A stretch of 64,000 nucleotides of DNA from Pseudothauera rhizosphaerae. Its GTDB lineage: Bacteria > Pseudomonadota > Gammaproteobacteria > Burkholderiales > Rhodocyclaceae. Positions 16,525-59,493 of the stretch are shown here, piece by piece. The stretch is taken from positions 1 to 64,000 of the forward strand of contig NZ_SSOD01000023.1 in the NCBI RefSeq assembly GCF_004801305.1, written 5' to 3'. The number at the start of each line of letters is the position of its first letter. The first letter of the stretch is position 1. The notes beneath the pieces are model-generated. The model was not told the origin of the DNA. It did no database searches and saw only the letters and a program-made list of their open reading frames with translations. The position numbers and the translations under genes were made by a program.

Positions 16525-16554
16525 GGCAGCATGCTCCCGGGCATGAAGGGATGC

Positions 16555-16571
16555 GGGGGCGCTCCGCCCCC
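16555..16571 (-). terminator. GC hairpin between zinc-finger and SnoaL-like genes
   Basis: GGGGGCG-CTC-CGCCCCC forms a 7-bp GC-only stem in a 67-bp gap. There is no T-run on either side. It may attenuate transcription from ilvE and the zinc-finger gene into the following genes. Confidence 0.35.
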
Positions 16572-16591
16572 GGGACCGCGCGGACGGGTTC

Positions 16592-16792: not shown

Positions 16793-16804
16793 GGGGAACT
16801 CCGT

Positions 16805-17725
16805 TCAGACGTAGGCGAGCCAGGATTCGTATTCGGGCGCGCGGCCGCCGACCACGTCGAAGAAGCGCGCCTGGATTTTCGAGGTGACCGGGCCGCGGCG
16901 GCCTTCGCCGATGACGCGGTTGTCCAGTTCGCGGATCGGGGTGACTTCGGCGGCGGTGCCGGTGAAGAAGGCTTCGTCGGCCAGGTAGATGTCGTCGCGG
17001 GTGAGGCGGCGCGACTGCACGTCGTAGCCCAGTTCGCGGGCGATGCGGATCACCGAGTCGCGCGTGATGCCGGTCAGCGCGGAGGCGATCTCGGGTTCGA
17101 GGATCACGCCATCCTTGACCACGAAGAGGTTCTCGCCCGAGCCCTCGGCCACGAAGCCCTGGGTGTCGAGGAGCAGCGCCTCGTCGTAGCCGTCGCGCGT
17201 GGCTTCCAGGTTGGCGAGGATGGAGTTGGTGTAGGCGCCGGCCAGCTTGGCGCGGGGCATGGTGACGTTGACGTGGTGGCGGGCGTAGGACGAGGTCTTC
17301 ACGCGGATGCCCTTTTCCAGGCCTTCCTCGCCCAGGTAGGCGCCCCACGGCCAGGCGGCGATGGCCACGTGCACGGTGGCGCCGACGGTGGAGATGCCCA
17401 TCTTCTCGGAGCCGTAGAAGGCGATCGGGCGCAGGTAGCAGGATTCGAGCTTGTTGGCGCGCACGACTTCCTTCTGCGCTTCCATGAGAACGTCCTTGGC
17501 GTAGGGGATGTCCATCATGTAGATCCGGGCGGAGTTGAGCAGGCGCTGGGTGTGCTCGGCCAGACGGTAGATCGCGGTGCCCTTGGCGGTCTTGTAGGCG
17601 CGCACGCCTTCGAACACGGCGAGGCCGTAGTGCAGCGAGTGGGTGAGCACGTGGGTGTTCGCCTCGCGCCACGGCACGAGCTTGCCGTCGTACCAGATGA
17701 AGCCGTCGCGGTCTGCCATCGACAT
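16805..17725 (-). CDS. ilvE: Branched-chain amino acid aminotransferase
   Basis: 306-aa PLP-dependent transaminase (fold type IV) that performs the last step of Ile, Val and Leu synthesis. Visible features are the N-terminal DGFIWYDGKLVPW, LHYGLAVFEGVRAY, the PLP-lysine segment PRAKLAGAYTNSILA, EGSGENLFVV, and FFTGTAAEVTPI. The length matches E. coli IlvE (309). GGAG lies 9 bp before the ATG at 17725; an internal ATG two codons later is possible. It appears to head a minus-strand operon with the zinc-finger, SnoaL-like and YheT genes. Confidence 0.96.
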   Translation of the reverse strand: MSMADRDGFIWYDGKLVPWREANTHVLTHSLHYGLAVFEGVRAYKTAKGTAIYRLAEHTQRLLNSARIYMMDIPYAKDVLMEAQKEVVRANKLESCYLRPIAFYGSEKMGISTVGATVHVAIAAWPWGAYLGEEGLEKGIRVKTSSYARHHVNVTMPRAKLAGAYTNSILANLEATRDGYDEALLLDTQGFVAEGSGENLFVVKDGVILEPEIASALTGITRDSVIRIARELGYDVQSRRLTRDDIYLADEAFFTGTAAEVTPIRELDNRVIGEGRRGPVTSKIQARFFDVVGGRAPEYESWLAYV

Positions 17726-41556: not shown

Positions 41557-41590
41557 CGCAAACAACTTTCTTGCGCGGGCAAACAAAAAA
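41557..41590 (+). promoter_or_regulatory. Siderophore regulator box 1 (upstream of exporter)
   Basis: This 34-bp stretch is 31/34 identical to 54048-54081. It contains two direct GCAAACA units about 20 bp apart (CGCAAACA near 41557 and GGCAAACAAAAAA at 41578-41590), separated by CTTTCTTGC. Direct repeats on one helix face suit an AraC-type activator; the AraC-type gene at 53022 is the obvious candidate. The box ends 15 bp before the -10 (41606), so the activator would sit over the -35 region. Confidence 0.75.
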
Positions 41591-41624: not shown

Positions 41625-41647
41625 TGAGAACGATTGTCAGTATCGTT
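41625..41647 (+). promoter_or_regulatory. Fur-box-like operator of the exporter/biosynthesis operon
   Basis: TGAGAACGATTGTCA (41625-41639) matches 11 of 14 defined positions of the Fur 7-1-7 motif TGATAAT-N-ATTATCA. An overlapping dyad AACGAT-N7-ATCGTT spans 41629-41647. It lies just downstream of the predicted -10, where Fur would block transcription under iron sufficiency. Confidence 0.75.
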
Positions 41648-41706: not shown

Positions 41707-42942
41707 ATGGAAATCGCCGCAACAGCCGCAGCGCAAGAAACGCACCGCACGGGCCGGCAGGAACGCTGGCTGGTGTTCGCCCTGGCGGGCATCCAGTTCT
41801 CCCACATCCTCGACTTCATGGTCGTGATGCCGCTCGGGCCGGTGCTCATGGAGGCGCTGGCCATCGACGCGCGGCAGTTCGCCCTGCTGGTGTCCATCTA
41901 TACGCTGGCGGCCGCGGGCAGCGGGCTGGCGGCCGCCGGCTTCATCGACCTGTTCGGCCGCAAGGGCCTGCTGCTGGGCCTGTTCGCCCTGTTCTGCCTC
42001 GCCACGCTGGCTTGCGGGCTGGCGCCCGATTACTCGACCCTGCTGCTCGCCCGCGCCCTGGCCGGCGCCTTCGGCGGGGTGCTGGCGGCCATGCTGCAGA
42101 CCGTGATCGGCGACGCCATCCCCTTCGAGCGGCGCGCGCGGGCCAGCGGCGCGGTGATGGCGGCCACCTCCCTGGCCGGTGTGCTGGGCGTGCCGCTCTC
42201 CCTGCTGGTGGCCGCCACCTTCGGCTGGCAGTGGCCCTTCGTGGCCATCGCGGCGGTGGCGGCGCTGTTCTGGGCGCTCGCCGCGCGCCACGTGCCGCGC
42301 CTGCCGCGCCATCCGGCGGGGCCGCGGCCCTTTGCGGGCATGGCGGCCGTGCTGCGCGAGCGCAACCACTGGGTGGCGCTGCTGTTCATGGCCCTGGGCG
42401 CGTTCTCCACCTTCACGGTGATGCCTTATCTCACCCTCCACCTCGTCCGCAACGTCGGGCTCGGCGTAGGGGACATGCCGCTGATCTACGCGCTGGGCGG
42501 CCTGGGCGGCTTCCTGGGGGCGCGCTGGATCGGCGGGCTGGCCGACCGCGCGGGCAAGGCGCGCATCTACCGCCTGGCCGGCTTGCTGTCGATCCCGGCC
42601 ATCCTGCTGCAGACCCATCTGCCGGCGCTCGCCCTGGGCTGGGTGCTGCCCTGCGCCATGGTCTTTCTGACCCTGATGCCGGCGCGCGCGGTGCCGGCGA
42701 TGGCGATTGCCATCTCGGCGGTGCCGCCGCCCGTGCGCGGCACCTTCCTGTCCCTCAGCGCGGCGGTCCAGCAACTGGCCTGCAGCGCCGCCGCCTACGC
42801 GGGCGGCCTGCTGATCGCCGAGGCGGCCGACGGCACCCTGAGCGGCTACGGCACGGCCGGCTGGCTGGCGGCGGCGCTGACCGGGGCCACGGTGCTGCTG
42901 GCGGGACGGATACGGATGCATGTCCGGCCGCCCGGCGCCTGA
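41707..42942 (+). CDS. MFS exporter, probable siderophore export
   Basis: 411-aa inner-membrane transporter with about twelve helices. The motif GFIDLFGRKGLLLG between TM2 and TM3 is the MFS motif A, and FSHILDFMVVMPLGP opens TM1 as in drug/siderophore exporters such as AlcS and CsbX-type proteins. It is the first gene behind the Fur box and activator box, and 49 bp before entC, so export of the catecholate made by the operon is the likely job. Confidence 0.88.
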   Translation: MEIAATAAAQETHRTGRQERWLVFALAGIQFSHILDFMVVMPLGPVLMEALAIDARQFALLVSIYTLAAAGSGLAAAGFIDLFGRKGLLLGLFALFCLATLACGLAPDYSTLLLARALAGAFGGVLAAMLQTVIGDAIPFERRARASGAVMAATSLAGVLGVPLSLLVAATFGWQWPFVAIAAVAALFWALAARHVPRLPRHPAGPRPFAGMAAVLRERNHWVALLFMALGAFSTFTVMPYLTLHLVRNVGLGVGDMPLIYALGGLGGFLGARWIGGLADRAGKARIYRLAGLLSIPAILLQTHLPALALGWVLPCAMVFLTLMPARAVPAMAIAISAVPPPVRGTFLSLSAAVQQLACSAAAYAGGLLIAEAADGTLSGYGTAGWLAAALTGATVLLAGRIRMHVRPPGA

Positions 42943-42991
42943 GCACGGCGCCGGGTGGATTCGATAGTCGTTGAACTGCGGAGGCAGACCC

Positions 42992-44196
42992 ATGAATGAT
43001 GTGATCAGAGGCGTGACCGACGCGCGCGCCCGGCTCCTGCTGGAGGATTACCGCGCCGAAGACCCGTTCTTCTTCGCCACGGCCGAGCACACCCTGCTGG
43101 CGCGGGGCTGCTACGCCACGGTGCCGCCGGCCGGCGATCTGGTGGAACTCAGCCAGGTGGTGGACGAGCAGTTGCAGGCCGCGCGGCGCAACGGACATCC
43201 GAACCCGATCGTGGTCGGCGCCGTCCCCTTCGACGCGCGCAGGCCGGCGTGCCTGTCGATTCCGCGCGAAGTCTCCTTCGCCGGGCCCCTGGAGCGCGGC
43301 CGTGCGGCCACATGGCGGCCGGAGCGCTACGAGGTGCGCCCGGAGCCCGAGCCCCAGGCCTATGCCGACGCGGTGGCCGAGGCGGTGCGCCGGATCAGGG
43401 CCGGCGGGCTGACCAAGGTGGTGCTGGCACGCACGCTGGCGCTCACCGGCGGCGAGGCCGTGGACGTGCCCGGCCTGCTCGAACGGCTGGCGCAGCGCAA
43501 TACCCACGGCTACACCTTTGCCGCCCGCCTGGGGGGCGAGGGGGGCGAGGGCGACGACGGGGCCGCCGCCACCCTCGTCGGCGCCAGCCCGGAACTGCTG
43601 GTCAGCCGCCGCGGCCTGCTGGTGCGCTCCAATCCCCTCGCCGGCTCGGCCGCGCGCAGCGGCGACGCGGCCGAGGACGCCCGCCGCGGGCAGGCCCTGC
43701 TGGGCTCGGCCAAGGACCTGCACGAACACAAGGTGGTGGCCGACGCGGTGGCGGCGGGGCTGCGCCCCCACTGCCGCAGGCTCGCAGCGCCGGCGGCGCC
43801 GGCGCTGCTGCACACCGCCACCATGCTGCATCTCTCCAGCGACATCCGCGGCGAACTGGCCGAACCGGCCGCCAACACGCTGCGGCTCGCCGCCAGCCTG
43901 CACCCCACGCCCGCGGTATGCGGCCATCCGGGCGCCGCGGCCTTCGATCTGATCGGCCGCCTCGACGCCTTCGACCGCGGCTTCTACGCCGGCCTGGTGG
44001 GCTGGTGCGACGCTGACGGCAACGGCGAATGGGTGGTGGCGCTGCGCTGCGCCGAGGTACAGGGCAAGCGCATGCGCCTCTTTGCCGGCGCCGGCATCGT
44101 CGCCGATTCCGATCCCCACAGCGAAGTGGCCGAGACCGGCGCCAAGTTCAGGACCATGCTCAACGCCATCGGCCACGTCCCGGAAGGAGCGCTGTG

Positions 44197-44197
<1 letters not shown>
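42992..44197 (+). CDS. entC: Isochorismate synthase
   Basis: 401-aa enzyme that converts chorismate to isochorismate, the first step to 2,3-dihydroxybenzoate. The chorismate-binding domain shows [57 protein letters not shown] and [12 protein letters not shown]. The latter half is very close to EntC/DhbC. The ATG at 42992 has GGAGG eight bases upstream. The stop overlaps the entE start (TGATG). Confidence 0.95.
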
Positions 44198-45810
<1,613 letters not shown>

Positions 45811-45842: not shown

Positions 45843-46718
45843 ATGGCCATACCCAAGATCGCCTCCTACCCCATGCCCGCCCAGGGCTGGAACAACCGCG
45901 TGCTGTGGCAGCCGGAGGCCCGCCGCGCGGCGCTGCTGGTGCACGACATGCAGGACTACTTTCTCGACTTCTACGACCGCGAGCGCGCGCCGGTCCCGGA
46001 ACTGCTCGCCAACGTCCGCCGGCTGCTCGACCTCGCCCGTGAACTGGGCATGCCGGTGATCTACACCGCCCAGTCGCCGGCCCAGACCCCGGCCGAGCGC
46101 GGGCTGCTGCAGGACATGTGGGGGCCGGGCCTGACCGCCCGGCCGCAGCGCAAGGACATTGCCGCCGAACTGGCGCCCCAGCCCCAGGACGTGGTCCTCG
46201 ACAAGTGGCGCTACAGCGCCTTCCAGCGCTCCCCCCTGCTCGAACTGCTGCGCGGCCAGGGGCGCGACCAGTTGATCGTGTGCGGCATCTACGCTCACAT
46301 CGGCTGCATGGCGACCGCCTGCGAAGCCTTCATGAGCGACATCCAGCCCTTCTTCGCCGCCGACGCCCTGGCCGACTTCTCCGCCCAGGAGCACGAAATG
46401 GCGCTGCGCTACGTCTCCCAGCGCTGCGGGGTGACGCTCCCCACCCAGGCCCTGGTGGACGGACTGCGTCCCCGCCTGCCGGCATCGCCCGGAGAACTCC
46501 GGCAGATCGTCGCCGACAGCCTCAAGATCGCCGCGGCGGACCCGGGCGAGGATGAAAGCCTGCTCGACTGGGGGCTGGACTCGATCCGCATCATGGCGCT
46601 GCTGGAGACCTGGCGCCGGGCCGGGCTGGACGTGGACTTCATGGCCCTGGCCGGGCAGCCCACGCTGGCGGCCTGGTGGGCGCTGCTGAACCGGCGCGAG
46701 GCGGAGGTGTGCGCATGA
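45843..46718 (+). CDS. entB: Isochorismatase with aryl carrier domain
   Basis: 291-aa bifunctional protein. The N-terminal isochorismatase (about 1-210) has ALLVHDMQDYFLDFY with the catalytic Asp and VCGIYAHIGCMATACEAFM. The C-terminal aryl carrier domain (about 215-285) has its phosphopantetheine Ser at about 247 in LLDWGLDSIRIMAL. It makes 2,3-dihydro-dihydroxybenzoate and then presents the activated acyl group to the NRPS. GGAG precedes the ATG. Its stop overlaps the esterase ATG by 4 bp. Confidence 0.96.
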   Translation: MAIPKIASYPMPAQGWNNRVLWQPEARRAALLVHDMQDYFLDFYDRERAPVPELLANVRRLLDLARELGMPVIYTAQSPAQTPAERGLLQDMWGPGLTARPQRKDIAAELAPQPQDVVLDKWRYSAFQRSPLLELLRGQGRDQLIVCGIYAHIGCMATACEAFMSDIQPFFAADALADFSAQEHEMALRYVSQRCGVTLPTQALVDGLRPRLPASPGELRQIVADSLKIAAADPGEDESLLDWGLDSIRIMALLETWRRAGLDVDFMALAGQPTLAAWWALLNRREAEVCA

Positions 46719-47671
46719 CGGTCCGCTCCATGCTGTGGCGCGCGCTGCTGGCGACGCTGCTGGTCGCCGCGCTGCCCGTCCGGGCGCAGACCGCCACCGA
46801 GCTCGCGCCGCCGCCGGCCGAATGGGGGCCGGTGCAGTTGTCGCGCAGCCTCGGCTTCGACATCGACTCGCGCCACACCGGCCAGCGCTACCGCATCGCC
46901 CTGGGCCTGCCCCACAAGCCGGCGCCGGCCGGAGGCTATCCGGTGCTGTGGGCGCTGGACGGCATGGCGAGCTTCCCCCTCATGGAAGTGATGCGCCCGC
47001 GCCCGCCGGCGGACGGCGAGAGCACCGCCTGGCGCCGCAAGGTGGGCGACGAGCCGGCCGGGCTGATCGTCGCCGTCGGCTACGCCAGCGGCGAGCCCAT
47101 CGACGTCCACGGGCGTGCGCTGGACTACACGCCGCCGGGGACCAGCGGGCCGACCGGAGACAAGTTCTCCACCCGCCACGGCGGCGCCGACGCCTTCCTG
47201 CGCTTCCTCACCGAGGAACTGCGCCCGCTGCTGGCGCGGCACTTCCCCATGGACCCGCAGCGCCACACCCTGTTCGGCTTCTCCTATGGCGGGCTGTTCG
47301 CGCTGCACGTGCTGAGCACCCGGCCGCAGCACTTCCAGCGCTACTGGGCCGCCAGCCCGTCCCTGTGGTTCGCCGGCCACCACCTCCTCGACGCCCTGCC
47401 GCAACGTCTGCCGGCGCTGGATTTCGCCGCCCATCCCGTTCTGGTGGAGATCACCGCCGGCGTAGACGAGCAATACCCGCAGAACGCCGTCTCCCCCGAA
47501 CGCCTGGCCCATCTGCAGGCCCGGCGCGTGGTCGACAACGCCGAACGTTTCGCCCGGCTGCTGGACGGGGCCGGCGCCCAGGTGCGCTTCCACAAGCTCG
47601 CCGACCATGACCACCACGACATGCTGACGCACGGCGCCCGGCGGGTGATCGAATTCGCCTTTGCGCCGTAA
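46715..47671 (+). CDS. Periplasmic esterase, Fes/IroE-like
   Basis: 318-aa alpha/beta hydrolase with a signal peptide (MLWRALLATLLVAALPVRAQ). The nucleophile elbow is TLFGFSYGGLFALHVLS; EITAGVDEQYP and the His in LADHDHHDML are candidate triad members. The pattern (RYRIALGLPHKPAPAGGYPVLWALDG) matches IroE/PfeE-type siderophore esterases, which hydrolyse catecholate esters in the periplasm. It is coupled to entB by ATGA. If the product lacks ester bonds, as the NRPS code suggests, this enzyme would act on foreign siderophores such as enterobactin. Confidence 0.88.
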   Translation: MTVRSMLWRALLATLLVAALPVRAQTATELAPPPAEWGPVQLSRSLGFDIDSRHTGQRYRIALGLPHKPAPAGGYPVLWALDGMASFPLMEVMRPRPPADGESTAWRRKVGDEPAGLIVAVGYASGEPIDVHGRALDYTPPGTSGPTGDKFSTRHGGADAFLRFLTEELRPLLARHFPMDPQRHTLFGFSYGGLFALHVLSTRPQHFQRYWAASPSLWFAGHHLLDALPQRLPALDFAAHPVLVEITAGVDEQYPQNAVSPERLAHLQARRVVDNAERFARLLDGAGAQVRFHKLADHDHHDMLTHGARRVIEFAFAP

Positions 47672-47704: not shown

Positions 47705-50700
47705 ATGACCTCGACCTCCCCCCGCCTGGCCGCCACCTCGGCCCAGTACGGCATCTGGATGGGCCAGCAGATGGCGCCCCAAAGCCCGTGCTACCTCACC
47801 GCCGAGGCCATCGAACTGCGCGGCGCCCTTGACCGCGCGGCGCTGTCCGCCAGCGTGGCCGAAGTGCTGGGCCATTGCAGCACGCTGCACATGCGCTTCG
47901 AGATGAACGACGACGGGCTGTGGCAGTGGCCGCAGCCGCCCGGCGACACGCGGCCCGAGGGGCACGACTTCCGCGGCGCGGCGGACCCCGACGCGGCGGC
48001 GCGGCAGTGGATGGCGCAGTCGCTGTCGAAGCTGTGCGACCCGGCGCGCGATGCGCTCCACCGCACCGCTCTGCTGCGCCTGGCCGACGACCGCCACCTG
48101 TGGTACCTGCAGGCCCACCACATCGCGCTGGACGGCTACGGCTACGGCCTGGTGTGCCAGGCGGTGGCTGCGCGCTACAGCGCGCGCATGCGCGGCGAAG
48201 CGCCGCCGGCCCTGCCCGACTGGCGCCTGGAGCCGCTGGTGGAGGCGGAACGGGCCTACAAGGCCAACGGCGGCTTCGCGCGCGACCAGGCGTTCTGGCG
48301 CGAACATCTGCATCAGGTGCCGCCGCCCGCCGTCGTTGCGCCGCAGCAGGAGCCCGCGGACGAGATCCTGCGCCGCAGCACCCGCCTGGGGCCGGCCGAG
48401 ATCGACGCCTTGCAGCAGGCCGCCCGCCGCTGCGGGCAGGACTGGGGAAGCTGGATGCTGGCGGCGATCGGCCTGTGGCTGGCGCGGCACTCGGGCCAGC
48501 GCCGGCTCACCTTCGGCCTGCCGGTGATGAACCGCCTCGGCACGCCCGCCCTCGGCGTACCCTGCATGGCGATGAACATCGTACCGATGATGGTACAGGT
48601 GGACCCCGCCCAGGACATGCAGGCCATGAGCCGCCAGATCGCCGAACGCATGCGCGCCATGCGCCCCCACCTCTACTACCGCTACGGCTGGATACGCGGC
48701 GACCTCGGCCTGCTGGAAATCCAGAAGCACCTCTTCAACCAGGCGGTGAACCTGATGCCCTTCGACCGCCACGCACCCTTCGCCGGGCTGGAAAGCGTCA
48801 TCCACCCCATCACCGCCGGCCCGGTCAAGGACCTCAACGTCAGCCTGTCGGTGCTCAACGCCGAATGGCGCCTGCTGGTCGAGGCCAACCCGAACGCCTA
48901 TCCGGCCGTGCGCCTGGACGAACTCCACCGCGACCTGCTCGACTGGCTGGCGAAGCTGGCGGCGCATCCCCCCGAGGCCGCGCTCGCGCCCTTGCTGGAG
49001 CTGCCGCCGCCGGCGGTGCTGGAAGGGCCGCCCCTGGACGGGCCGGCGCATCCGGTGCTCGACCGCCTGCGCGCCGCCGCCGCGCGCACGCCGGACAAGG
49101 CCGCGCTCGAATGGGCCGGGGAAAGCATGAGCTACGCCGAACTGCTGTGCCGGGTCCGCCGCCTGGCCGCGCGCCTGAAGGAGGAGGGGCTGGAAGCGGG
49201 CGAGCGGGTGGTGATCCTGCTCCCGCGCGGCCCGCAGGCCATCGTCGCCCTGCTGGCCACGCTGTGGGCCGGCGGCTGCTACGTGCCGCTCGACCCCCTC
49301 GGCCCGCCCGCCCGCCTGGCGCTGGTGCTGGACGACGCCGCGCCGCGGCGGGTGCTCAGCCTGCGCCGCTGGGCGGACAAGGCCGGGGTGCGCCCGGTGC
49401 TGTGCCTGGATGAAGGGCACGACGGCGGGGCCGGCGAGGGCATGCCGGCCCCGCCCGCCGCGGCCGCCGGGCAGCCGGCCTACCTGCTCTACACCTCCGG
49501 CTCCACCGGCCGGCCCAACGGTGTGGAGGTGGGCCACGGTGCCCTGGCCCACTTCGTCGCCAGCGCCGGGCAGCTCTACCGCATCGCCGCCGCAGACCGC
49601 GTGCTGCAATTCGCCCCGCTGCACTTCGACGCCAGCATCGAGGAAATCTTCCTGGCCCTGTGCCACGGCGCCACGCTGGTGCTGCGCGACGACGCCGTGC
49701 TCGATTCCATCGCCGCCTTCACCACCTTCGCCGAGGGTGCGCGCATCAGCGTGCTCGACCTGCCCACCGCCTACTGGCACGAACTGGCGCACGCCCTCGA
49801 CGGTGAACGGGCGGCGCAACTGCGCCACGTGCGGCTGACCATCATCGGCGGCGAAGCCGCGCTGCCGGCGCGCGCGCGGCGTTGGCGCGACCTGCTGCCG
49901 GACAACGAACTGCTCAACAGCTACGGGCCCACCGAAGCCTCGGTGATCGCCACCACGGCTGCCCTCGGCGGCCCGGCGGCGGTGTGGGACGGCAGCGACG
50001 AACTGCCCATCGGCCGTCCGCGCCCCGACGTGAAGGTGCTGGTGGTGGACGACCATCTCCACCCCGTGGCCGCCGGCCGGCCCGGCGAACTGGTGCTGTG
50101 CGGCGAGGCGCTGGCGCTGGGCTATCGCGGCAACGCGGAACTCACCGCGCGCCGCTTCGTGACCCTGCCGGGGACGGGCGAGCGCGGCTACCGCACAGGC
50201 GACCGCGCCTGCCTGCGCGACGGCCAGTTGTTCTTCCTCGGCCGCCTCGACCACGAAGTCAAGATCAGCGGGCTGCGGGTGGACCCCACCGAAATCGAAA
50301 ACGCGCTGCTCGCCCATCCCGACGTGCGCGAAGCCGCCGTGGTGGCGGTGCCCCATGCCCACGGCGGCTACCGGCTGGCGGCCTTCCTGGCCGGCACCGC
50401 CGCGTCCGCGTCGCTGCGCGGCGAACTGGCGCAACTGCTGCCGCACGCCGCGGTGCCCGACCACTGGCAGGCGCTGGACAGCCTGCCGCGCAACCCCAAC
50501 GGCAAGATCGACCGCAAGCACCTGGCCGAAATCGCCGGCCGGCAATGCGGCACGGTGCTGCCCCAGGCCACGGCGCTGGAGCGCCGCATCATGGAAGTGT
50601 GGCAGGAAGTGCTGGGCCGGGCGCCGGAGGGCGTGGAGGCCAACTTCTTCGACCTCGGCGGCAAGTCGCTGCAAGCCATCCAGGTCTCCAACCGGCTGAG

Positions 50701-51595
50701 CCGGCTGCTGCAGCACGAAGTGCCCGTGTCGGCCCTGTTCCAGCACGCCACCGTGCAGGCCCTGGCCCGCGCGCTGGGCGCGCCGGCGGCCCACCGGCCG
50801 CCCGCGGAAGAAGCGGACCAGGCTTTCGGCGCGGTGCTGACCCTGCAACCGGGGCCCCCGCCGGCGCTGTTCTGCCTGCCGCCGGCCGAAGGGCTGTCGT
50901 GGTGCTACCTGGGCCTGGCGCGCCACCTGCCCGGCGTGGCGATCCACGGCCTGCAGGCCACCGGACTGGAAGCCGCGGCCATCGACCGCTTCGACGCCCT
51001 GGTGGCCTACTACGTGGCGCGCATCCGCGGGCGGCAGGCCAGCGGCCCCTACCGTTTGCTGGGCTGGTCCCTCGGCGGCGCGCTGGCGCAGGCGGTGGCG
51101 GTCGAATTGCAGCAGCAGGGGGAAGAGGTGGACCTGGTGGCGATGATGGACGGCTACCCGGCCGAGGCGTTCGCGGACTGGCGCCCGCCCGCCCTGGAGG
51201 ATGCCCTGGTCGCCCTCTCCAGCGTCAACGGCGACATCGCGCCCGGCACCCCGGAGGCGCTCTACCACCGCATGCTGCAGGCCGACGGCCCCCTGGCGGC
51301 GCTGGGCCGCGCGGGGCTGGAACGCCTGGGGGGAGCCTCCCTGCGCGGCATGCAGGCGTTCCGCAACGCCCGCACCCGCCGCTACCGCGGCGACCTGCTG
51401 CTGTTCAGCGCCGGCCAGCGCGAGGACATCGCGCCGCGGCCGTCGTCCTGGCAGCCCTACCTGGACGGCCGGCTGGACTGCATCGAACTCGACTGCGACC
51501 ACTTCGGCATGAGCGATCCCGCGCCCCTGCGGGCCATCGGCGAAGCGTTGGCCGAGCGCCTCGGCGTGGGCGCGGCCGAACTGGTGGAGGGCTGA
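47705..51595 (+). CDS. One-module catecholate siderophore NRPS (C-A-T-TE)
   Basis: 1296-aa synthetase. Condensation (about 1-430) has HHIALDG. Adenylation (about 455-930) has [29 protein letters not shown] and [10 protein letters not shown] carrier domain follows with [13 protein letters not shown] (Ser about 988), then a thioesterase with [10 protein letters not shown] (Ser about 1122) and DCDHFG (His about 1266). This is the EntF domain order and length. Aligning to GrsA by eye, the specificity residues are D-A-E-D-I-G-S-V-I plus Lys. The two acidic positions favour a basic side chain, most likely lysine, not the serine of EntF. No epimerase domain and no MbtH-like gene are present. Confidence 0.93.
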
Positions 51596-51599
51596 GCCG

Positions 51600-52361
51600 A
51601 TGAACGGAAAACTGGCCATCGTCAGCGGCGCGGCGCAGGGCATCGGTGCCGCCATCGTCGACGCCCTGGTGGTGCGCGGCGCACGGGTCGCCGCCCTCGA
51701 CGTGCAGGGCGGGCCGCTGGAGGAGATGGCGGCGCGCCACGGCGGACGGGTACGGCCCTACGCGGTGGACCTGCGCGCCAGCCGGGAGGTGGAGCGCACG
51801 GTGGCGGCGGTCGAAAACGGGATGGGCGAGATCGGCATGCTGGCCCACAGCGCCGGCATCCTGCGCCTGGGCGGGGTGACCGCGCTGAGCGACCGGGACT
51901 GGGAGGACACCTTCGCGGTCAACGTGCACGGCGTGTTCTACCTGGCGCGGGCGGTGGCGCGGCACATGGTGCCGCGCCGGCGCGGCGCCATCGTCACCGT
52001 GGGCTCCAACGCCGCCGCCGTGCCGCGCACGGGCATGGCGGCCTATGCGGCGTCCAAGGCCGCGGTGTGCCACTTCACCAAATGCCTGGGCCTGGAACTG
52101 GCCGGCTTCGGCATCCGCTGCAACGTGGTCTCGCCGGGCTCCACCGACACCGCCATGCAGCGCCAGTTGTGGCAGTCGGAGGACGATGCGGCGCGCGTCA
52201 TCGCCGGCACGCCGGCCGAGTTCAGAACCGGCATTCCCCTGGGCCGCATCGCCCGCCCGCAGGACATCGCCGAGGCGGTCCTGTTCCTGCTCGGCGACGG
52301 GGCGCGCCACATCACCATGCACGAACTGTGCGTCGATGGCGGCGCCACGCTGGGCGTCTAG
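51600..52361 (+). CDS. entA: 2,3-dihydro-2,3-dihydroxybenzoate dehydrogenase
   Basis: 253-aa short-chain dehydrogenase that oxidises the EntB product to 2,3-dihydroxybenzoate with NAD+. The Rossmann motif is [13 protein letters not shown]; the active site has Ser in [15 protein letters not shown], then Tyr and Lys in [23 protein letters not shown] is typical of EntA/DhbA. It starts 5 bp after the NRPS stop, so is coupled to it, and completes the DHB pathway (EntC, EntB, EntA) within one operon. Confidence 0.95.
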
Positions 52362-52391
52362 ACGGCCTTGGCCTATGTCGAGCGTGAGTTG

Positions 52392-53081
52392 ATGCCGGGC
52401 GGCCTGCCGGCGGGGGTGCGCGTCTGGCTGCTGTCCTTCGTGCTCGCCGAGCAGCGGCTGGCGTTGCTGCTGCCGCTGCTCTCCGCGGCGGAGCGCGCGC
52501 GCTGCCTGCGCTACCGGTCGGGGGCGGACCGCATCCGCTTCGCCGCCGCGCGCGCGGTGCTGCGGCGGCGGCTGGGCGAGCGCCTGGGGCTGCCCGCGGC
52601 GGAGGTGGGGATCGTGATCGGCCCCTATGGCAAGCCCATGCTGCGGGGCGGCGCGGTGCCGCACTTCAACCTCTCCCATGGGGGCGCCTGGGGGCTGCTG
52701 GCGATGTCCGAAGCCGGCCCGGTGGGGGCCGACATCGAAGCGGTGGATGGCCGCCTCGGCCGCGCGGCGCTGGCCGGCTGCCTGACGCCGGCCGAGCGCC
52801 GCTATTGCGGGCGGCGCGATGCCGAGGCCCTGTTCCGCGTGTGGTGCGGCAAGGAGGCGGTGCTCAAGGCCCTGGGCACCGGCTTCGCGGCCGACCCGGC
52901 GGCGGTGGCGGCGGTGCCCGCGGCCGGGCGGCGCTACGCGGTGGCGCTGCCGCCCGGCCTGCCCGCGACCCGTGCCTGGCAACTGCCCGCGCCGGACGGG
53001 TTCGCCGCGGCCCTGGCCTTGTCAGACGCGATTCCGGCAGTGCTTGGGCGGCAGGCCGAAATGGCGGCGGAAGGCGGTTGA
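52392..53081 (+). CDS. 4'-phosphopantetheinyl transferase, Sfp/EntD type
   Basis: 229-aa enzyme that would convert the carrier Ser of EntB and the NRPS to the holo form. Family motifs are present: KPMLRGGAVPHFNLSHGG, GADIEAVD (Mg-binding acidic residues) and FRVWCGKEAVLKALGTG (W-x2-KEA). The start is uncertain; ATG 52392 is chosen, TTG 52368 (7 bp after entA) is in frame. Its last 60 bp run antisense through the 3' end of the araC-type gene, an unusual convergent coding overlap. It is the last gene of the exporter-ent operon. Confidence 0.92.
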   Translation: MPGGLPAGVRVWLLSFVLAEQRLALLLPLLSAAERARCLRYRSGADRIRFAAARAVLRRRLGERLGLPAAEVGIVIGPYGKPMLRGGAVPHFNLSHGGAWGLLAMSEAGPVGADIEAVDGRLGRAALAGCLTPAERRYCGRRDAEALFRVWCGKEAVLKALGTGFAADPAAVAAVPAAGRRYAVALPPGLPATRAWQLPAPDGFAAALALSDAIPAVLGRQAEMAAEGG

Positions 53082-54056
53082 GAAGTTGGCCTGGTTGCTG
53101 TAGCCGGCGATCTCGGCCGCGCGCGCCACGCTGACGCCCTCGTGCTGCAGGGCATGGGCGGCGCGGCGCAGCCGGCTGCAGCGCAGATAGTCGTAGATGG
53201 ACTGGCCGCACACGTCGCGGAATTCGTGCTGCAGGGTGTTGGCGTTGCAGCCCATGTACACGGCGATGGCGCGCAGGTCGAGGTGGTCGGCCTCGCCGCT
53301 GTCCAGGAAGGCCTGCAGGCGGCGCACGCGCTGGTGGCAGCCGGCGGGCAGGGTGGCCGCGCCGTGGGGCATGTCGGTCATGGTCTGGGACAGGGCCTCG
53401 ACGATCAGTTCCAGCGCCCGGCTTTCCTGGTGCAGGCGCAGGATGGGGCCTTCGAGTTCGAGCGGATGGATGAGTTGCTCGGCGATGGCGGTAGCGCGCC
53501 GGGAAGGTTCCCACGGCCGGACCGAGACGTGCTCGCGGAACACGTCCGGGGAGATCCGCAGCGCGTCGAACCATGCCGGGCGCAGGGTCAGTACCACCAT
53601 GCGCTGGCGGCCGCCGGCGCGGGCCTGGCGCTGCAGCGTGTCGGGGGCGTTGAGGGTCACCACCGCGCCGCGGGGGACGGCGTTGGGGGCCTGGCCGGCG
53701 TCGAGCGGCAGCACCTGCCGGCCCACCATGACCTGCGCATTGCCTTCGAGGCGGAGCATGACCTTGATGCTGCGCTCCTCGATGGCGTACTGGGTGGTCA
53801 TGTCCTGCAACTGGACCACGTCGGTGCAGTGCAGCGACATGCCGTCCCGCAGCGGCGTGAGCGAAAAGCTGCCCTGCATCAATGGCGTCGCCTGGCCGGC
53901 GTTGGGGCACAGCAACTGGTGGCCGCGGCCCACCTGGGCGCCCAGCCGGTCGCCGTCGATGGAGCTGGGCGGCTTGCCTGCGGCGAATCCGCGGGTGGGG
54001 AAGGTCTTCTTGCGGCGGGCGGTACGCGCCGCGGCGGGAGGGGGGCTCGCAAACAT
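53022..54056 (-). CDS. AraC-family regulator of siderophore genes (PchR/AlcR-like)
   Basis: 344-aa regulator. The C-terminal about 100 residues are two HTH motifs (LDLRAIAVYMGCNANTLQHEF and VSVARAAEIAGYSNQANFSTAFRRHFGL). The N-terminal half (SFSLTPLRDGMSLHCTDVVQL) resembles the effector domain of PchR/AlcR-type activators, which bind ferri-siderophore. The ATG at 54056 has GGAG eight bases upstream; that ribosome site lies inside the shared 34-bp box (54048-54081). It is divergent from the fepA-like gene, and its 3' end overlaps the transferase gene by 60 bp. Confidence 0.9.
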   Translation of the reverse strand: MFASPPPAAARTARRKKTFPTRGFAAGKPPSSIDGDRLGAQVGRGHQLLCPNAGQATPLMQGSFSLTPLRDGMSLHCTDVVQLQDMTTQYAIEERSIKVMLRLEGNAQVMVGRQVLPLDAGQAPNAVPRGAVVTLNAPDTLQRQARAGGRQRMVVLTLRPAWFDALRISPDVFREHVSVRPWEPSRRATAIAEQLIHPLELEGPILRLHQESRALELIVEALSQTMTDMPHGAATLPAGCHQRVRRLQAFLDSGEADHLDLRAIAVYMGCNANTLQHEFRDVCGQSIYDYLRCSRLRRAAHALQHEGVSVARAAEIAGYSNQANFSTAFRRHFGLPPKHCRNRV

Positions 54057-54081
54057 CTTTCTTGCTCCGGCAAACAAAAAA
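54048..54081 (+). promoter_or_regulatory. Siderophore regulator box 2 (upstream of receptor)
   Basis: Near-copy (31/34) of the box at 41557-41590, in the same orientation relative to the gene it would activate. It contains CGCAAACA at 54048-54055 and GGCAAACAAAAAA at 54069-54081. It also covers the ribosome-binding site and start codon of the divergent regulator gene, so binding could limit the regulator's own synthesis. Confidence 0.75.
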
Positions 54082-54119: not shown

Positions 54120-54134
54120 TGCGAACAATTTGCA
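54120..54134 (+). promoter_or_regulatory. Fur-box-like operator of the receptor operon
   Basis: TGCGAACAATTTGCA matches 10 of 14 defined positions of the Fur 7-1-7 motif and sits inside the longer palindrome AAATGC-N9-GCATTT. It lies 38 bp after box 2 (34 bp at box 1) and 37 bp before the receptor ATG. Confidence 0.7.
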
Positions 54135-54171
54135 TTTTCAAATTGCAACGCATATCAGGGAGAGTAAAAAA

Positions 54172-56421
54172 ATGCAATCGTGGAAGGTGAGCGGCCGTTT
54201 CAGGGTACTGGCGGCGGCCATGGCAGCGGCCTATGCAGGCGCGCCGGCGCTGGCCCAGCAAGGCGAAGCGGTGCTCCGGGAAGTGACGGTGCTGGGCACG
54301 GCCGAAGAGACGCTCAAGCAGGCGCCGGGGGTGTCCATCATCACCGCCGAGGACATCGGGAAGCGGCCACCGGTCAACGACATCTCGGAGATCATCCGCA
54401 CCATGCCCGGCGTGAACCTGACCGGCAACTCCACCAGCGGACAGCGTGGCAACAACCGCCAGATCGACCTGCGCGGCATGGGGCCGGAGAACACGCTGAT
54501 CCTGATCGATGGCAAACCCGCTACCAGCCGCAACTCGGTACGCTTCGGCTGGCGCGGTGAGCGCGACACCCGCGGCGACAGCAACTGGGTGCCGGCGGAA
54601 CAGATCGAGCGCATCGAGGTGATCCGCGGCCCCGCCGCGGCACGCTACGGCAACGGCGCGGCCGGCGGGGTGGTGAACATCATCACCAAGAAGGCGGGTA
54701 AGGAACTGCACGGAGAGGTAAGCCTGTATGCCAATGCCCCCGAGCATTCGGACGAGGGCGCGACACGGCGGTTGAACTTCGGCCTCAGCGGCCCGCTGGG
54801 CGAGCAGTTCTCCTTCCGCGTCATGGGCAACTACAACCGCACGGAGGAGGACGACCGCTACATCAACGACGGCCATCAGGCGCCGGGATTTGCGAATGCG
54901 ATGCCGGCCGGCCGCGAAGGCGTGAACAACCGCGACTTCAGCGGGCAACTGAGCTGGCAGCCGTCGGCCGCCCACCGCCTGGACTTGGACCTGGGCTACA
55001 GCCGGCAGGGCAACCTCTACGCCGGCGACACGCAGAACGCGAGCTCCAACCCGGTCGTCGATCCCGTCGTCGAACGCATGCGGGGCAAGGAAACGAACGT
55101 CATGCGGCGTACCAACTACGCGCTGACCCATACCGGCAAGTACGACTTCGGCAGCTCGCTGAGCTACGTGCAGTACACCGCAACCGACAACAAGCGCATC
55201 CAGGAAGGCCTGGCCGGGGCCACCGAGGGCGCCTTCCTCGCCGGCAATCCCCCTTTCATGACCAATGAGCTGCGCGATCTGACCGTGCATGGCGAGGTGA
55301 ATCTGCCCCTGAGCGGCGTGTTCAAGCAGGTGCTCACCGTCGGTGCGGAATGGACCCGCTCGGAACTGGAGGATCCGACCTCCACCACCCAGACTACGCA
55401 GTTCGGCACCATTCCGGGCGTCAGCAGCACCGGGCGCAGCCCGGATGCGTCGGCGCGCATCGCCTCGGTGTTCGTGGAGGACAACATCGAGCTTTCCGAG
55501 AACACCGTGCTCACGCCGGGCCTGCGTTTCGACCGGCACTCGGAGGCGGGCGGCAACTGGAGTCCGGCGCTCAACCTGATGCACATGTTCAGCGACCGGG
55601 TCACGCTGAAGGGCGGTATCGCCCGCGCCTACAAGGCACCCAACCTGTACCAGGGCAATCCGAACTACCTGCTCTACAGCAACGGCAACGGCTGCCCGAC
55701 CGTGGGCAACGGTACCACCGGCTGCTACCTGATCGGCAACGACGACCTGGATGCCGAAACCAGTATCAACAAGGAACTGGGCATCGAGTACAAGGTGGGC
55801 GGCTTCTCCGCCGGGGTGACCTGGTTCCGCAACGACTACCGCGACAAGATCCAGGCCGACACGACGCCGGTGGGCATCACCGCCACGGGCAACCGCAGCA
55901 TCTACCAGTGGACGAACATTCCCAAGGCGGTGGTGGAAGGGCTGGAAGGCAGCCTGCGCCTGCCGCTGGCCACCGGGCTGGACTGGCTGACCAACTTCAC
56001 CTATATGATCGAGTCGAAGAACAAGACCACCGGCGACTATCTCTCGATCATCCCGGAATACACGGTGAACACCTCCCTCGATTGGCGTGCCAGCGACAAG
56101 TTCGGCCTGCTGCTGGCGGTGACCTTCTATGGCGAGCAGGAGCCGATGAAGTACGACTTCAAGGGCGACCGGGTGACCGGCACGTCGGCCGATTCGGTCG
56201 ATCCCTACGCGGTGGTCAACCTGAGCGGCGACTATGCGGTGTCCAAGCATCTCAAGGTCACGGCCGGCATCAACAACCTCTTCGACAAGCGGCAATACCG
56301 CCGCGGCAACGCGGTTTCCGTGAGCTCGACGCCGGTATACGGCACCAGTGGCGGGGCCGGGGCGGCCACCTACAACGAGCATGGCCGCACCCTCTACGTC
56401 GCGCTGACGACCTCGTTCTGA
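54172..56421 (+). CDS. fepA: TonB-dependent catecholate siderophore receptor
   Basis: 749-aa outer-membrane receptor (E. coli FepA 746). A signal peptide ends near PALAQQ; a TonB-box-like LREVTVLGTAEE follows. The plug contains RQIDLRGMGPENTLILIDGK, SRNSVRFGWRGERDTRGDSN and RGPAAARYGNGAAGGVVNII, all FepA-class blocks. The 22-strand barrel ends YVALTTSF with the terminal Phe. GGGAGAG precedes the ATG at 54172. It starts the uptake operon and should import Fe-catecholates, probably including enterobactin-type compounds. Confidence 0.95.
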   Translation: MQSWKVSGRFRVLAAAMAAAYAGAPALAQQGEAVLREVTVLGTAEETLKQAPGVSIITAEDIGKRPPVNDISEIIRTMPGVNLTGNSTSGQRGNNRQIDLRGMGPENTLILIDGKPATSRNSVRFGWRGERDTRGDSNWVPAEQIERIEVIRGPAAARYGNGAAGGVVNIITKKAGKELHGEVSLYANAPEHSDEGATRRLNFGLSGPLGEQFSFRVMGNYNRTEEDDRYINDGHQAPGFANAMPAGREGVNNRDFSGQLSWQPSAAHRLDLDLGYSRQGNLYAGDTQNASSNPVVDPVVERMRGKETNVMRRTNYALTHTGKYDFGSSLSYVQYTATDNKRIQEGLAGATEGAFLAGNPPFMTNELRDLTVHGEVNLPLSGVFKQVLTVGAEWTRSELEDPTSTTQTTQFGTIPGVSSTGRSPDASARIASVFVEDNIELSENTVLTPGLRFDRHSEAGGNWSPALNLMHMFSDRVTLKGGIARAYKAPNLYQGNPNYLLYSNGNGCPTVGNGTTGCYLIGNDDLDAETSINKELGIEYKVGGFSAGVTWFRNDYRDKIQADTTPVGITATGNRSIYQWTNIPKAVVEGLEGSLRLPLATGLDWLTNFTYMIESKNKTTGDYLSIIPEYTVNTSLDWRASDKFGLLLAVTFYGEQEPMKYDFKGDRVTGTSADSVDPYAVVNLSGDYAVSKHLKVTAGINNLFDKRQYRRGNAVSVSSTPVYGTSGGAGAATYNEHGRTLYVALTTSF

Positions 56422-57590
56422 TGCCGGACACGACGCATATGAAGACAAGGTGGCGACGAATCGGCGCCGGCCTGGCGCTCACCCTGGGCCTTGCCGCGGG
56501 CCCCCTGCACGCGGCCGACGACGCGGTGACGGACCTCGCCGGGCGTACGCTGCGGGTGCCGGCCAACACCCAGCGCATCCTGCTCGGCGAGGCGCGCCTG
56601 ATCCCCGCGCTGGCGGTGCTGGAACGGGAGACGCTGGGCGAACGCATCGTCGGCATGCCGGCCGACTTCGAACTGCTCGACCCGCCCGGCTACGCCCAGT
56701 ACCTGGAGCGCTACCCGCAACTGCGCGAGGTGGCGCGCACCGGGCGGATGACGGCGGACACCTTCAGCGTGGAGATGGCCCTCTCCCTCAAGCCCGACCT
56801 GGCCATCTTCGGCCTGGAAGGGCACGGCCCTTCGCCCGAGCACCGCGAAACCCTGGACCGCCTGGCGGCGGCCGGCGTCACCGTGGTGTTCGTCGATTTC
56901 CGCAAGGAGCCGCTGCGCAACACTCCGCGCAGCATCGAGGTGCTCGGCCGGGTGCTGGGGCGCGAGGGCGAGGCGGCCGCCTTCGTGGAGGAATACGAAG
57001 CCCAGCTCGCGCGCGTGACCGAGCGCCTGGCGGCGCGCACGGCCGACGGCCCCACGGTGTTCATCGAGAACCGCGTCGGGCTCTCCGAGGAATGCTGCGC
57101 GACCATGAGCGAGGGCCTGATGGGCACGCTGCTGGACGCCGCCGGCGGGCGCAACGTGGCCAAGGGGCTGGTGCCCGGCGCCTTTGGCGTGCTCAGCCTG
57201 GAGCATCTGGTGAGCCGCCCGCCGGAGGTCTACATCGGCACCGCGATCGGCTCCCGCGCCACCATGGAGCGCATGCCCATGCGCATCGTGCTCGGCCCCG
57301 GCGTCGACGGGCAGACCGCGCGCGAATCCCTGGCGCGCGCCCTGCAGCGTCCCGGCATCGCCACGCTGCCGGCGGTCCGGCAGGGCAGGGCGCACGCCAT
57401 CTGGCACCACTTCTACGTCTCGCCGTTCAACGTGGTCGCGGTGCAGGTGTTCGCCAAGTGGCTGTACCCGGAACTCTTCGCCGACCTGCGCCCGGAAGAG
57501 ACGCTCGCCATGTTCTATCGCCGCTTCCAGCCCGTGCCGCTGGACGGCGAATACTGGACGAGCCTGGGCGCGGAGGGCGCCGTACGGTGA
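56421..57590 (+). CDS. Siderophore ABC transporter, periplasmic binding protein
   Basis: 389-aa FepB/FecB-type binding protein. The signal peptide is TRWRRIGAGLALTLGLAAG; the mature part begins ADDAVTDLAGRTLRVPANTQRILL, the usual entry of helical-backbone binding proteins. MALSLKPDLAIFGLEG and LVSRPPEVYIGT are the interlobe segments. The start may be ATG 56421 (overlapping the receptor stop, TGATG) or ATG 56439. It overlaps the permease start. Confidence 0.88.
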   Translation: MPDTTHMKTRWRRIGAGLALTLGLAAGPLHAADDAVTDLAGRTLRVPANTQRILLGEARLIPALAVLERETLGERIVGMPADFELLDPPGYAQYLERYPQLREVARTGRMTADTFSVEMALSLKPDLAIFGLEGHGPSPEHRETLDRLAAAGVTVVFVDFRKEPLRNTPRSIEVLGRVLGREGEAAAFVEEYEAQLARVTERLAARTADGPTVFIENRVGLSEECCATMSEGLMGTLLDAAGGRNVAKGLVPGAFGVLSLEHLVSRPPEVYIGTAIGSRATMERMPMRIVLGPGVDGQTARESLARALQRPGIATLPAVRQGRAHAIWHHFYVSPFNVVAVQVFAKWLYPELFADLRPEETLAMFYRRFQPVPLDGEYWTSLGAEGAVR

Positions 57591-58648
57591 TCGCGGCACA
57601 GAATGCGGGCATGACCCTGGCCGAGCGCTACGCCGCGTGCGTGCGCCGCCGGGTCGCGGTGCTGTCGGCCCTGCTGCTGGCGCTGGGGCTGATCTTCCTC
57701 GCCGATCTGGCCACCGGCCCGTCGGGCCTGCCGTGGCAAACCGTGTGGCAGGGCGTGCTCGACCCGCAGCACCTGGACGTGGGCACGCGGGTGATCCTGT
57801 GGGACGTGCGCCTGCCCTACGCGGTCATGGCGGTGCTGGTGGGTGCCGCCCTCGGCCTGGCCGGCGCGCAGATGCAGACGGTGCTGAACAACCCGCTCGC
57901 CAGCCCGTTCACCCTCGGCCTGTCGGCGGCGGCCACGGTGGGGGCCTCGCTGGCCCTCATCACCGGCTTCTCCGCCTGGGGGCTGGGGCAATCGATCGCG
58001 CTGCCCCTGTGCGCCTTCGGCGGCGCGGCCGTGGGGGCGCTGCTGATCCACCTGCTGGCCCTGCGCTGGGGCGCTTCGGTGAACTCGGTGGTGCTGTTCG
58101 GCATCGCGCTGATGTTCAGCTTCGAAGCCCTGCTGTGGCTGCTGCAGTACGTGGCGGACAACGCCCTGCAGCAGATCGTGTTCTGGAGCATGGGCAGCCT
58201 GGGCCGTTCCACCTGGCCCCGGATCGGCGTGCTGGCGGTGGTGGTGCTCGTCTGTGCGTTGTGGACCCAGTCCCAGGCCTGGGCCATGACCGCCCTGCGC
58301 AGCGGCGAGGACCATGCCCGCAGTTGCGGCGTGGCGGTGGAGCGGCTGCGCCTGGTGAGCCTGATCCGGGTCTGCCTGTTGAGCGGCACGGCGCTCGCCT
58401 TCGTCGGCACCATCGGCTTCGTCGGCCTGGTGGGGCCGCACATGGCGCGCCTCGCCCTGGGCGAGGATCACCGCTTCTTCCTGCCCGCGAGCGCCCTGGC
58501 CGGCGCGCTGATGCTGTCGTGCGCCTCCATACTGAGCAAGGTGCTGGTGCCGGGCGTGGTCCTGCCGATCGGCATCGTCACCGCGCTGGTGGGGGTGCCG
58601 GTCTTCATGCTGCTGGTGGTGCGCCACCAGAAGGGGCTGCGCGAATGA
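57587..58648 (+). CDS. Siderophore ABC transporter, FecCD-type permease
   Basis: 353-aa inner-membrane permease with about nine to ten helices. LVGAALGLAGAQMQTVLNNPLASPFTLGLSAAATVGA and GTIGFVGLVGPHMARLALGEDHRF are the FecCD/BtuC signature segments, the latter being the coupling region for the ATPase. Only one permease is encoded, so it should work as a homodimer, unlike FepD/FepG. It starts at GTG 57587, overlapping the binding-protein stop (GTGA), with GGAGGG upstream. An ATG at 57611 is the alternative. Confidence 0.92.
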   Translation: MIAAQNAGMTLAERYAACVRRRVAVLSALLLALGLIFLADLATGPSGLPWQTVWQGVLDPQHLDVGTRVILWDVRLPYAVMAVLVGAALGLAGAQMQTVLNNPLASPFTLGLSAAATVGASLALITGFSAWGLGQSIALPLCAFGGAAVGALLIHLLALRWGASVNSVVLFGIALMFSFEALLWLLQYVADNALQQIVFWSMGSLGRSTWPRIGVLAVVVLVCALWTQSQAWAMTALRSGEDHARSCGVAVERLRLVSLIRVCLLSGTALAFVGTIGFVGLVGPHMARLALGEDHRFFLPASALAGALMLSCASILSKVLVPGVVLPIGIVTALVGVPVFMLLVVRHQKGLRE

Positions 58649-59493
58649 ACGCGCAGCAATGCTGCTTCACGGCCGCTGCGCGGTCCCCGGCCGCGCCCGC
58701 CACGGAGGTGCCGGCGGGGCTGGTGTTGCGCGGCCTCGGCGTGTCCTACGGCAGCAAGGCGGTGGTGCGCGACATCGACCTGGCGCCCTTGCCCACGGGT
58801 TGCGTGGTGGCCATGGTGGGCGCCAACGGCGCGGGCAAGTCCTCCACCCTGCGCGCTCTGGCCGGCCTCAACCCCATGAGCGGGCAGGCGCTGCTCGACG
58901 GCGACGATCTCGCCGCCCTCGACCCGGCCACGCGCGCGCGCCGCGTGGCCTACATGCCCCAGAGCCTGCCCCAGGCCTCCTCGCTCACGGTCTACGAATC
59001 GGTGCTGAGCGCGGTGCGCACCGCCTGTCCGCAACTGGGCACCGCGGTGGTGCACCAGCGCATCGAGACCGTGCTGGGCGACCTTGGCCTGCGGGATCTG
59101 GCCATGCGGCCCCTGCTGGCCCTGTCCGGCGGGCAGCGCCAGATGGCCGGGCTGGCCCAGTTGCTGGTACGCGAGCCGCGCCTGCTGCTGCTCGACGAGC
59201 CCACCAGCGCACTCGACCTGCGCTGGCAGTTGTGCCTGATGGAGGCCCTGCGCCGCCACGTGGCCGGCCGCCAGGCCCTGTGCCTGATGGCGGTCCACGA
59301 CCTGAACCTGGCGGCACGCTTCTGCAGCGACATGCTGGTGATGGCGCAGGGACGGCTGATCGCGCGCGGCGCGCCCGGCCGCATCCTCACGCCGGACCTG
59401 CTGCGGCGGGCCTACGGCATTGCCGCGCGCGTGGAAACCTGCTCGCTGGGCACGCCGCTGGTGATCGCGGAGCGGGCATTCGATCCGGAGTGA
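58645..59493 (+). CDS. Siderophore ABC transporter, ATP-binding protein
   Basis: 282-aa FepC/FhuC-type ATPase. Walker A is VGANGAGKSSTLRAL, the Q-loop AYMPQSLPQ, the signature ALSGGQRQMAGLAQLL, Walker B LLLLDEPTSALD, and the switch His lies in MAVHDLNLAARF. A 30-residue N-terminal tail before LRGLGVSYGSKAV is longer than usual. The ATG overlaps the permease stop by 4 bp. Together with the FepB-like and FecCD proteins it forms the inner-membrane importer. Confidence 0.95.
   Translation: MNAQQCCFTAAARSPAAPATEVPAGLVLRGLGVSYGSKAVVRDIDLAPLPTGCVVAMVGANGAGKSSTLRALAGLNPMSGQALLDGDDLAALDPATRARRVAYMPQSLPQASSLTVYESVLSAVRTACPQLGTAVVHQRIETVLGDLGLRDLAMRPLLALSGGQRQMAGLAQLLVREPRLLLLDEPTSALDLRWQLCLMEALRRHVAGRQALCLMAVHDLNLAARFCSDMLVMAQGRLIARGAPGRILTPDLLRRAYGIAARVETCSLGTPLVIAERAFDPE

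Follow-up and report, generated by a model that had tools for sequence, protein, structure and literature searches.

The window analysed here is a stretch of 64,000 nucleotides from Pseudothauera rhizosphaerae, and the gene of interest within it encodes a nonribosomal peptide synthetase (NRPS) that stands among genes for 2,3-dihydroxybenzoate (DHB) formation and for catecholate siderophore transport. Its frame is intact from ATG through stop codon, the GC content at third codon positions is 0.93, and Pfam models resolve one condensation (C), one adenylation (A), one thiolation (T) and one thioesterase (TE) domain in the protein. The gene, its domains and its pocket codons are as follows.

47705..51595, + strand: predicted lysine-type NRPS, C-A-T-TE, 1296 amino acids (Pfam architecture, code DAEDIGSVIK, A tree, C trees)
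47705..49003, + strand: condensation domain, residues 1-433, motif HHIALDG (Pfam PF00668; Condensation match 9-423)
49040..50539, + strand: adenylation domain, residues 446-945 (Pfam; AMP-binding match 456-807, AMP-binding_C match 863-934)
50570..50794, + strand: thiolation domain, LGGKS (Pfam; PP-binding match 961-1024)
50825..51592, + strand: thioesterase domain, GWSLGG (Pfam; Thioesterase match 1054-1270)
49628, 49631, 49640, 49757, 49841, 49847, 49919, 49943, 49946 and 50504, + strand: codon starts of the ten pocket residues (alignment columns)

The highest-ranking NCBIfam model is MxcG, which scores 1002 bits across residues 10-1039 against a cut-off of 2300; EntF follows with 531 bits (cut-off 2400), and since both scores fall under their cut-offs neither model claims the protein. 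A genome-wide search with PF00668 (4.6 Mb, completeness 99.9%) returned no second C domain besides the one in the NRPS. When this domain was searched against solved structures, the best solved C domain scored 189 bits and the amide synthase 1l5a (VibH) 90 bits; free amide synthases of the VibH kind are stand-alone proteins, and the C domain of the window is fused.

Adenylation code and phylogenetic position

The residues lining the predicted pocket of the A domain are D642, A643, E646, D685, I713, G715, S739, V747, I748 and K934, which together read DAEDIGSVIK, and alignment thereby reproduced all ten residues that had been picked by eye in the sequence-only reading. The GrsA numbering was mapped from the known GrsA pocket positions rather than through an alignment with 1AMU, and the check on this mapping is internal: the identical columns yield DVWHFSLVDK, the serine code of EntF, in all eight EntF-type rows of the 81-row NRPS alignment. 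Of these 81 rows, 70 hold a DAED/DTED-type code (one lacking the last position), eight hold the serine code and three were in the wrong frame, namely Azotobacter vinelandii, Burkholderia lata and locus L035; re-reading of the first two gave DAEDIGTVIK and DAEDIGTIIK, respectively. Loci L022, L023 and L046 represent one gene in this alignment, L022 incompletely. Myxochelin contains lysine, and the MxcG-type enzyme of Myxococcus xanthus has the code DAEDIGTVVK. Measured against the code of the window, the enzymes of A. vinelandii, Burkholderia and Chromobacterium and the Myxococcus MxcG vary only at positions 7-9. The sole match of a literature search with the ten-letter codes was a paper on eggshell proteins.

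Trees were built on 47 of the 81 NRPS rows, with three stand-alone C domains added in the first C tree; for the second C tree the long or odd rows L088, L085, L076 and L084 were dropped and six rows added. The A tree gathers the window, Burkholderia, Chromobacterium and the nearest relatives of the window into an 18-row group (100/99), nested in a 32-row, mostly betaproteobacterial group (100/98) that takes in A. vinelandii, and it sets the EntF-type rows on a long branch apart from the window group, with a bootstrap that had not settled (0.986, 0.99 being wanted) and 18 of 44 inner branches open. The C trees place the window with the enzymes of the producer genera at 100/100. A swap of the C domain is not needed to account for the origin of the enzyme, because the A tree also joins the window with Burkholderia and Chromobacterium.

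Relatives were collected by a scan of contigs, the best 80 of 117 confirmed stretches corresponding to 78 loci. Among the matches listed are 12 named loci from Burkholderia (52-57% identity over the best segment) and seven from Chromobacterium, one species appearing twice (55-61%, likewise over the best segment). In the Chromobacterium genus, that of C. subtsugae, 13 of 19 genomes hold a relative of 58-61% identity, with the code DAEDIGSIIK in 12 of them and DAEDIGSVIK in one. Within the family of the window, which is also that of Uliginosibacterium, genome G660 encodes an NRPS 79% identical with an identical code, and in the family of Methylobacillus three of 150 sampled genomes match at E <= 1e-100, with full-length relatives of 65-66% identity in Methylobacillus and G151. 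The lysine system is rare in the family and order of the window: the C domain is matched at E <= 1e-70 in three of 297 genomes of the family and in six of 399 of the order (the genome of the window counted in both), and only the window, G257 and G235 among those six order genomes exceed 50% identity. Of six genomes of the genus that were searched, the NRPS found a match at E <= 1e-100 in two, that of the window and that of its congener G001. The latter (locus L024, G001:C4:52000-71900) encodes an EntF-type enzyme of 35% identity with the code DVWHFSLVDK and has its own DHB genes nearby. A lysine system in one congener and a serine system of EntF type in another gives the appearance of one siderophore having replaced the other among close relatives.

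Cepaciachelin, which is bis-DHB-lysyl-putrescine, is reported from Burkholderia ambifaria, Methylophilus sp. strain 5 and Chromobacterium violaceum, and azotochelin and aminochelin from Methylophilus as well (PMC13251462). As the code and the position in the A tree agree with those of bacteria whose close relatives are published cepaciachelin and azotochelin makers, lysine is very likely the right substrate, and the earlier suggestion of a lysine-activating domain is supported by code, phylogeny and gene context. With a probability of roughly 85%, we read the gene as a lysine-specific synthetase of azotochelin/cepaciachelin type with a bis-DHB-lysine pathway.

The siderophore operon and its predicted regulation

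The genes around the synthetase, with the family models that identify them, are given below.

41707..42942, + strand: exporter of the major facilitator superfamily (MFS), first gene of the operon (PF07690)
42971..44197, + strand: isochorismate synthase, EntC/DhbC (TIGR00543, 284 bits, cut-off 225; DhbC model 480, just below its cut-off of 486)
44197..45810, + strand: 2,3-DHB-AMP ligase, EntE (TIGR02275, 771 bits, cut-off 724)
45843..46718, + strand: isochorismatase with aryl carrier protein, EntB (PF00857, PF00550)
46715..47671, + strand: siderophore esterase resembling IroE and Fes, apparently with a signal peptide as judged by eye (PF00756)
51600..52361, + strand: 2,3-dihydro-2,3-DHB dehydrogenase, EntA (TIGR04316, 347 bits, cut-off 300)
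52368..53081, + strand: 4'-phosphopantetheinyl transferase (PF01648)
53022..53879, - strand: AraC-type regulator, start estimated, the open frame extending to 54128 (PF12833; conserved in relatives)
54172..56421, + strand: FepA-family TonB-dependent receptor, start estimated (NF010048, 1114 bits, cut-off 493)
56439..57590, + strand: periplasmic siderophore-binding protein (PF01497)
57611..58648, + strand: FecCD permease (PF01032)
58645..59493, + strand: ATPase of the ATP-binding cassette type (PF00005)

The presence of EntC, EntE, EntB and EntA, already noted from the sequence, was recovered by family models in every case, and the exporter, the esterase, the phosphopantetheinyl transferase, the AraC-type regulator, the receptor and the binding protein/FecCD/ATPase transporter come in addition to that list. 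The order exporter, EntC, EntE, EntB, esterase, NRPS, EntA, phosphopantetheinyl transferase, FepA is common to two Rhodoferax, Curvibacter, Methylobacillus, G660 and G151. An esterase lies immediately upstream of the NRPS in all nine of the following: the window, G660, the two Rhodoferax, Methylobacillus, G151, Curvibacter, Iodobacter and G257. The nearest solved structures to the esterase of the window are the ferric enterobactin esterase 6gi0 and BES 2qm0, and IroE 2gzr matches too. The genome also holds decarboxylase families able to supply diamines, but such families are common, so that this evidence is weak. Adjoining the siderophore genes is a large protein with POR and DUF6537 (59835-63428, - strand), probably an unrelated ferredoxin oxidoreductase.

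Two copies of an operator-like element and two Fur-box-like sites are listed next.

41558..41590, + strand: 33-base-pair operator-like element, copy 1, before the biosynthetic operon (30/33 identical to copy 2)
54049..54081, + strand: 33-base-pair operator-like element, copy 2, in the promoter region of the divergent AraC and fepA genes (30/33 identical to copy 1)
41626..41644, either strand: Fur-box-like site before the first gene, the best of the window (14/19 on +, 15/19 on -)
54121..54139, either strand: weak Fur-box-like site upstream of fepA (12/19, no better than shuffled sequence)

The element was scored by a 30-position pattern derived from the two copies in the window, where the next best site reaches 17/30, as in shuffled sequence (17-18 in five shuffles). 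Among 12 other loci searched, five hold two copies, one before the exporter gene and one before fepA; four of these score 23-28/30 (L053, L081, L025 and L136), and L027 scores 23 and 22, near the background of up to 20. One copy (29/30) was found in L148, a stretch that ends near the second place, and none in L026, L149, L046, L044, L022 and L024. The AraC protein occurs at 57-84% identity in all six element-bearing relatives, and weaker matches of 25-36% occur in L032, L022 and L149 (16 loci searched). We infer that the AraC-type regulator binds the element. As for Fur, 40 dinucleotide shuffles of the window, scored on both strands, gave a best value of 13/19.

Stand-alone condensation domains in other genomes

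A C domain of the window type is encoded as a separate protein in four genomes, namely A. vinelandii (62% identity), Uliginosibacterium (66%), Aquabacterium (54%) and G235 (52%), at these positions:

L044 (A. vinelandii), 15935-17230
L022, 10529-11872
L100, 10001-11281
L150, 8287-9576

All four genomes also hold a full lysine-type synthetase with the other type of C domain (42-45%). In 13 genomes with the fused window type no second C-domain match above 29% identity was found at E <= 1e-25, and none at E <= 1e-70 in the window, G257 and G660. With Myxococcus MxcG and Paracoccus EntF set aside, 13 of 16 genomes carry the other-type synthetase but no separate C domain of the window type. Unrelated C-domain frames of stand-alone size were seen in Collimonas (518 amino acids, 29%) and Paracoccus denitrificans (489 amino acids, 32%).

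In the second C tree the stand-alone domains of A. vinelandii and Uliginosibacterium are nested in the lineage of the window (96/95); the domains from Aquabacterium and G235 stand next to Burkholderia (100/99). In approximately unbiased (AU) tests, whose groups were named after inspection of the tree so that the p values are too kind, a single clade of the four stand-alone domains was rejected (p 0.00016), as was a single clade of the 22 fused domains to the exclusion of the stand-alone ones (p 1.5e-39). The stand-alone domains appear to have at least two origins and look to be derived from fused ones, in trees that are unrooted. In A. vinelandii and Uliginosibacterium an esterase lies just upstream of the stand-alone C domain, as it does upstream of the NRPS in the window; in Aquabacterium and G235 an esterase of 36-38% identity lies some kilobases off on the other strand.

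The HHxxxDG motif is kept in all four stand-alone domains. They are candidate amide synthases for aminochelin or protochelin, and on the simplest reading they have a role of their own, which would most likely be the transfer of DHB or bis-DHB-lysine to putrescine. A precedent is an engineered Escherichia coli pathway in which polyamines are condensed with EntB-tethered DHB to give aminochelin (PMC5635690), and a C domain of another system can place putrescine on a peptide (PMC10587159). A literature search on the putrescine-catecholate step, with most subscription papers outside its reach, found no enzyme assignment. We tentatively propose, while regarding the idea as somewhat more apt to fail than to hold, that the window-type C domain is a versatile acylator of both lysine amines and of free putrescine, which was freed at least twice (in A. 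vinelandii with Uliginosibacterium, and in Aquabacterium with G235) to serve as an amide synthase beside a second lysine synthetase. If this were true, the separate C-domain gene that A. vinelandii has beside its IroE-like esterase would encode the enzyme forming aminochelin or protochelin, and C-domain type together with fusion state would predict production of azotochelin, cepaciachelin or protochelin. The pattern of C domains is a direct, testable lead to the enzyme that makes putrescine-containing catecholates.

Proposed pathway, alternatives and known systems

In the pathway that we propose, EntC, EntB and EntA would produce DHB, EntE would charge the EntB carrier with it, and the phosphopantetheinyl transferase would activate the carriers. 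The A domain would activate L-lysine and load it on the T domain, after which the single C domain would transfer DHB from EntB onto both amines of the lysyl-S-T intermediate; since the genome search turned up no other C domain, this one must acylate both. Release of bis-DHB-lysine by the TE domain could proceed by hydrolysis, giving azotochelin, or onto putrescine, giving cepaciachelin, or both ways, and cepaciachelin and/or azotochelin is the most likely product. The earlier expectation of a bis-DHB-lysine such as azotochelin is supported by code, phylogeny and gene context; given the cepaciachelin relatives, free azotochelin is not the only end product to be expected. The MFS protein would export the siderophore, its iron complex would return through the FepA-type receptor and the transporter made up of binding protein, FecCD permease and ATPase, and Fur and the AraC-type regulator would control the whole.

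Several points weigh against this assignment. For the exact code and organism, lysine is assigned by comparison of sequences, and the producer strains of the literature are represented by relatives from their genera. Six of the 19 genomes of the Chromobacterium genus gave weaker matches only, the best in G868 being a 41% relative. The literature consulted does not establish what adds the putrescine of cepaciachelin. For an amide-only product with two catechols, the IroE-type esterase and the FepA-type receptor are unexpected, being usual with ester-linked tris-catecholates; IroE-family genes stand beside siderophore uptake genes in A. vinelandii as well, according to a review (PMC10669500).

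The receptor, with a score well above cut-off, and the esterase inside the operon could recommend a hexadentate tris-catecholate, either protochelin (azotochelin plus DHB-putrescine) or an oligomer of DHB-lysine built by the TE domain through side-chain amines. We know of no precedent for a lysine oligomer siderophore, and the esterase is not expected to cleave amides. In favour of protochelin, A. vinelandii, which makes it (PMC10669500), does have the window-type C domain as a stand-alone protein; against it, the products named for Methylophilus in the sections consulted of PMC13251462 are cepaciachelin, azotochelin and aminochelin only. Taken together, we consider a tris-catecholate product unlikely. 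A good deal less likely again is an A domain that accepts ornithine or another basic residue and leads to, for example, bis-DHB-ornithine; the acidic E646 and D685 would suit any basic side chain and the exact code is known here from sequence alone, but code and phylogeny cluster with the enzymes of azotochelin, cepaciachelin and myxochelin organisms, and the ornithine codes DMENLGLINK and DVGEIGSIDK differ from that of the window. An EntF variant producing a serine trilactone, for which the shared C-A-T-TE architecture, the FepA-like receptor, the IroE-like esterase and the serine-code enzyme of congener G001 might be invoked, is rejected as scarcely credible on code (not DVWHFSLVDK), model score and separate position in the A tree.

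The lysine-specific synthetase of azotochelin/cepaciachelin type that we favour can be set beside four known systems. EntF of enterobactin synthesis shares with it the C-A-T-TE architecture and the DHB donor and departs from it in the serine code, EntF-type enzymes being 34-35% identical; the sequence-only reading had described an EntF-shaped enzyme with a different substrate, a description refined here, as the stronger MxcG score and the separate EntF branch speak against an EntF with an exchanged substrate, and the EntF label easily given to such genes is corrected here. MxcG of myxochelin synthesis, for which double acylation of lysine is known, gives the best NCBIfam match over C-A-T. It ends in a reductase, its defining domain, at whose position the enzyme of the window has a thioesterase, and its score here lies far below cut-off. 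The azotochelin, aminochelin and protochelin cluster of A. vinelandii resembles the window in its C-A-T-TE enzyme with the closely similar code and in an IroE-like esterase beside a window-type C domain; it is unlike the window in that its NRPS has the other C-domain type (44%) and a gene of its own encodes the window-type C domain. Lysochelin of Lysobacter was rejected as a relative, being a DHB-spermidine described as NRPS-independent (PMC11233812).

The closest likeness is to the cepaciachelin synthetases of B. ambifaria, Methylophilus sp. strain 5 and C. violaceum ('chromobactin'), each with 2,3-DHB genes and one lysine-code C-A-T-TE protein. This kind of enzyme is already in print, PMC4906002 linking to cepaciachelin a DHB cluster of B. 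ambifaria AMMD whose Cstarter-A-Te protein has an A domain predicted for Lys. The window shows the same set of features, namely one C-A-T-TE protein among 2,3-DHB genes, a lysine-type code and a tree position among producer genera, its A and C domains falling in one clade with the Burkholderia and Chromobacterium relatives of cepaciachelin makers. Compared with those genera (52-61% identity), its lineage adds the adjacent esterase, the FepA-type receptor and an AraC/operator system of its own. The enzyme belongs to a known kind of synthetase rather than being an altered EntF, and through it a further lineage, one within the Uliginosibacterium family, joins the likely makers of lysine catecholates.

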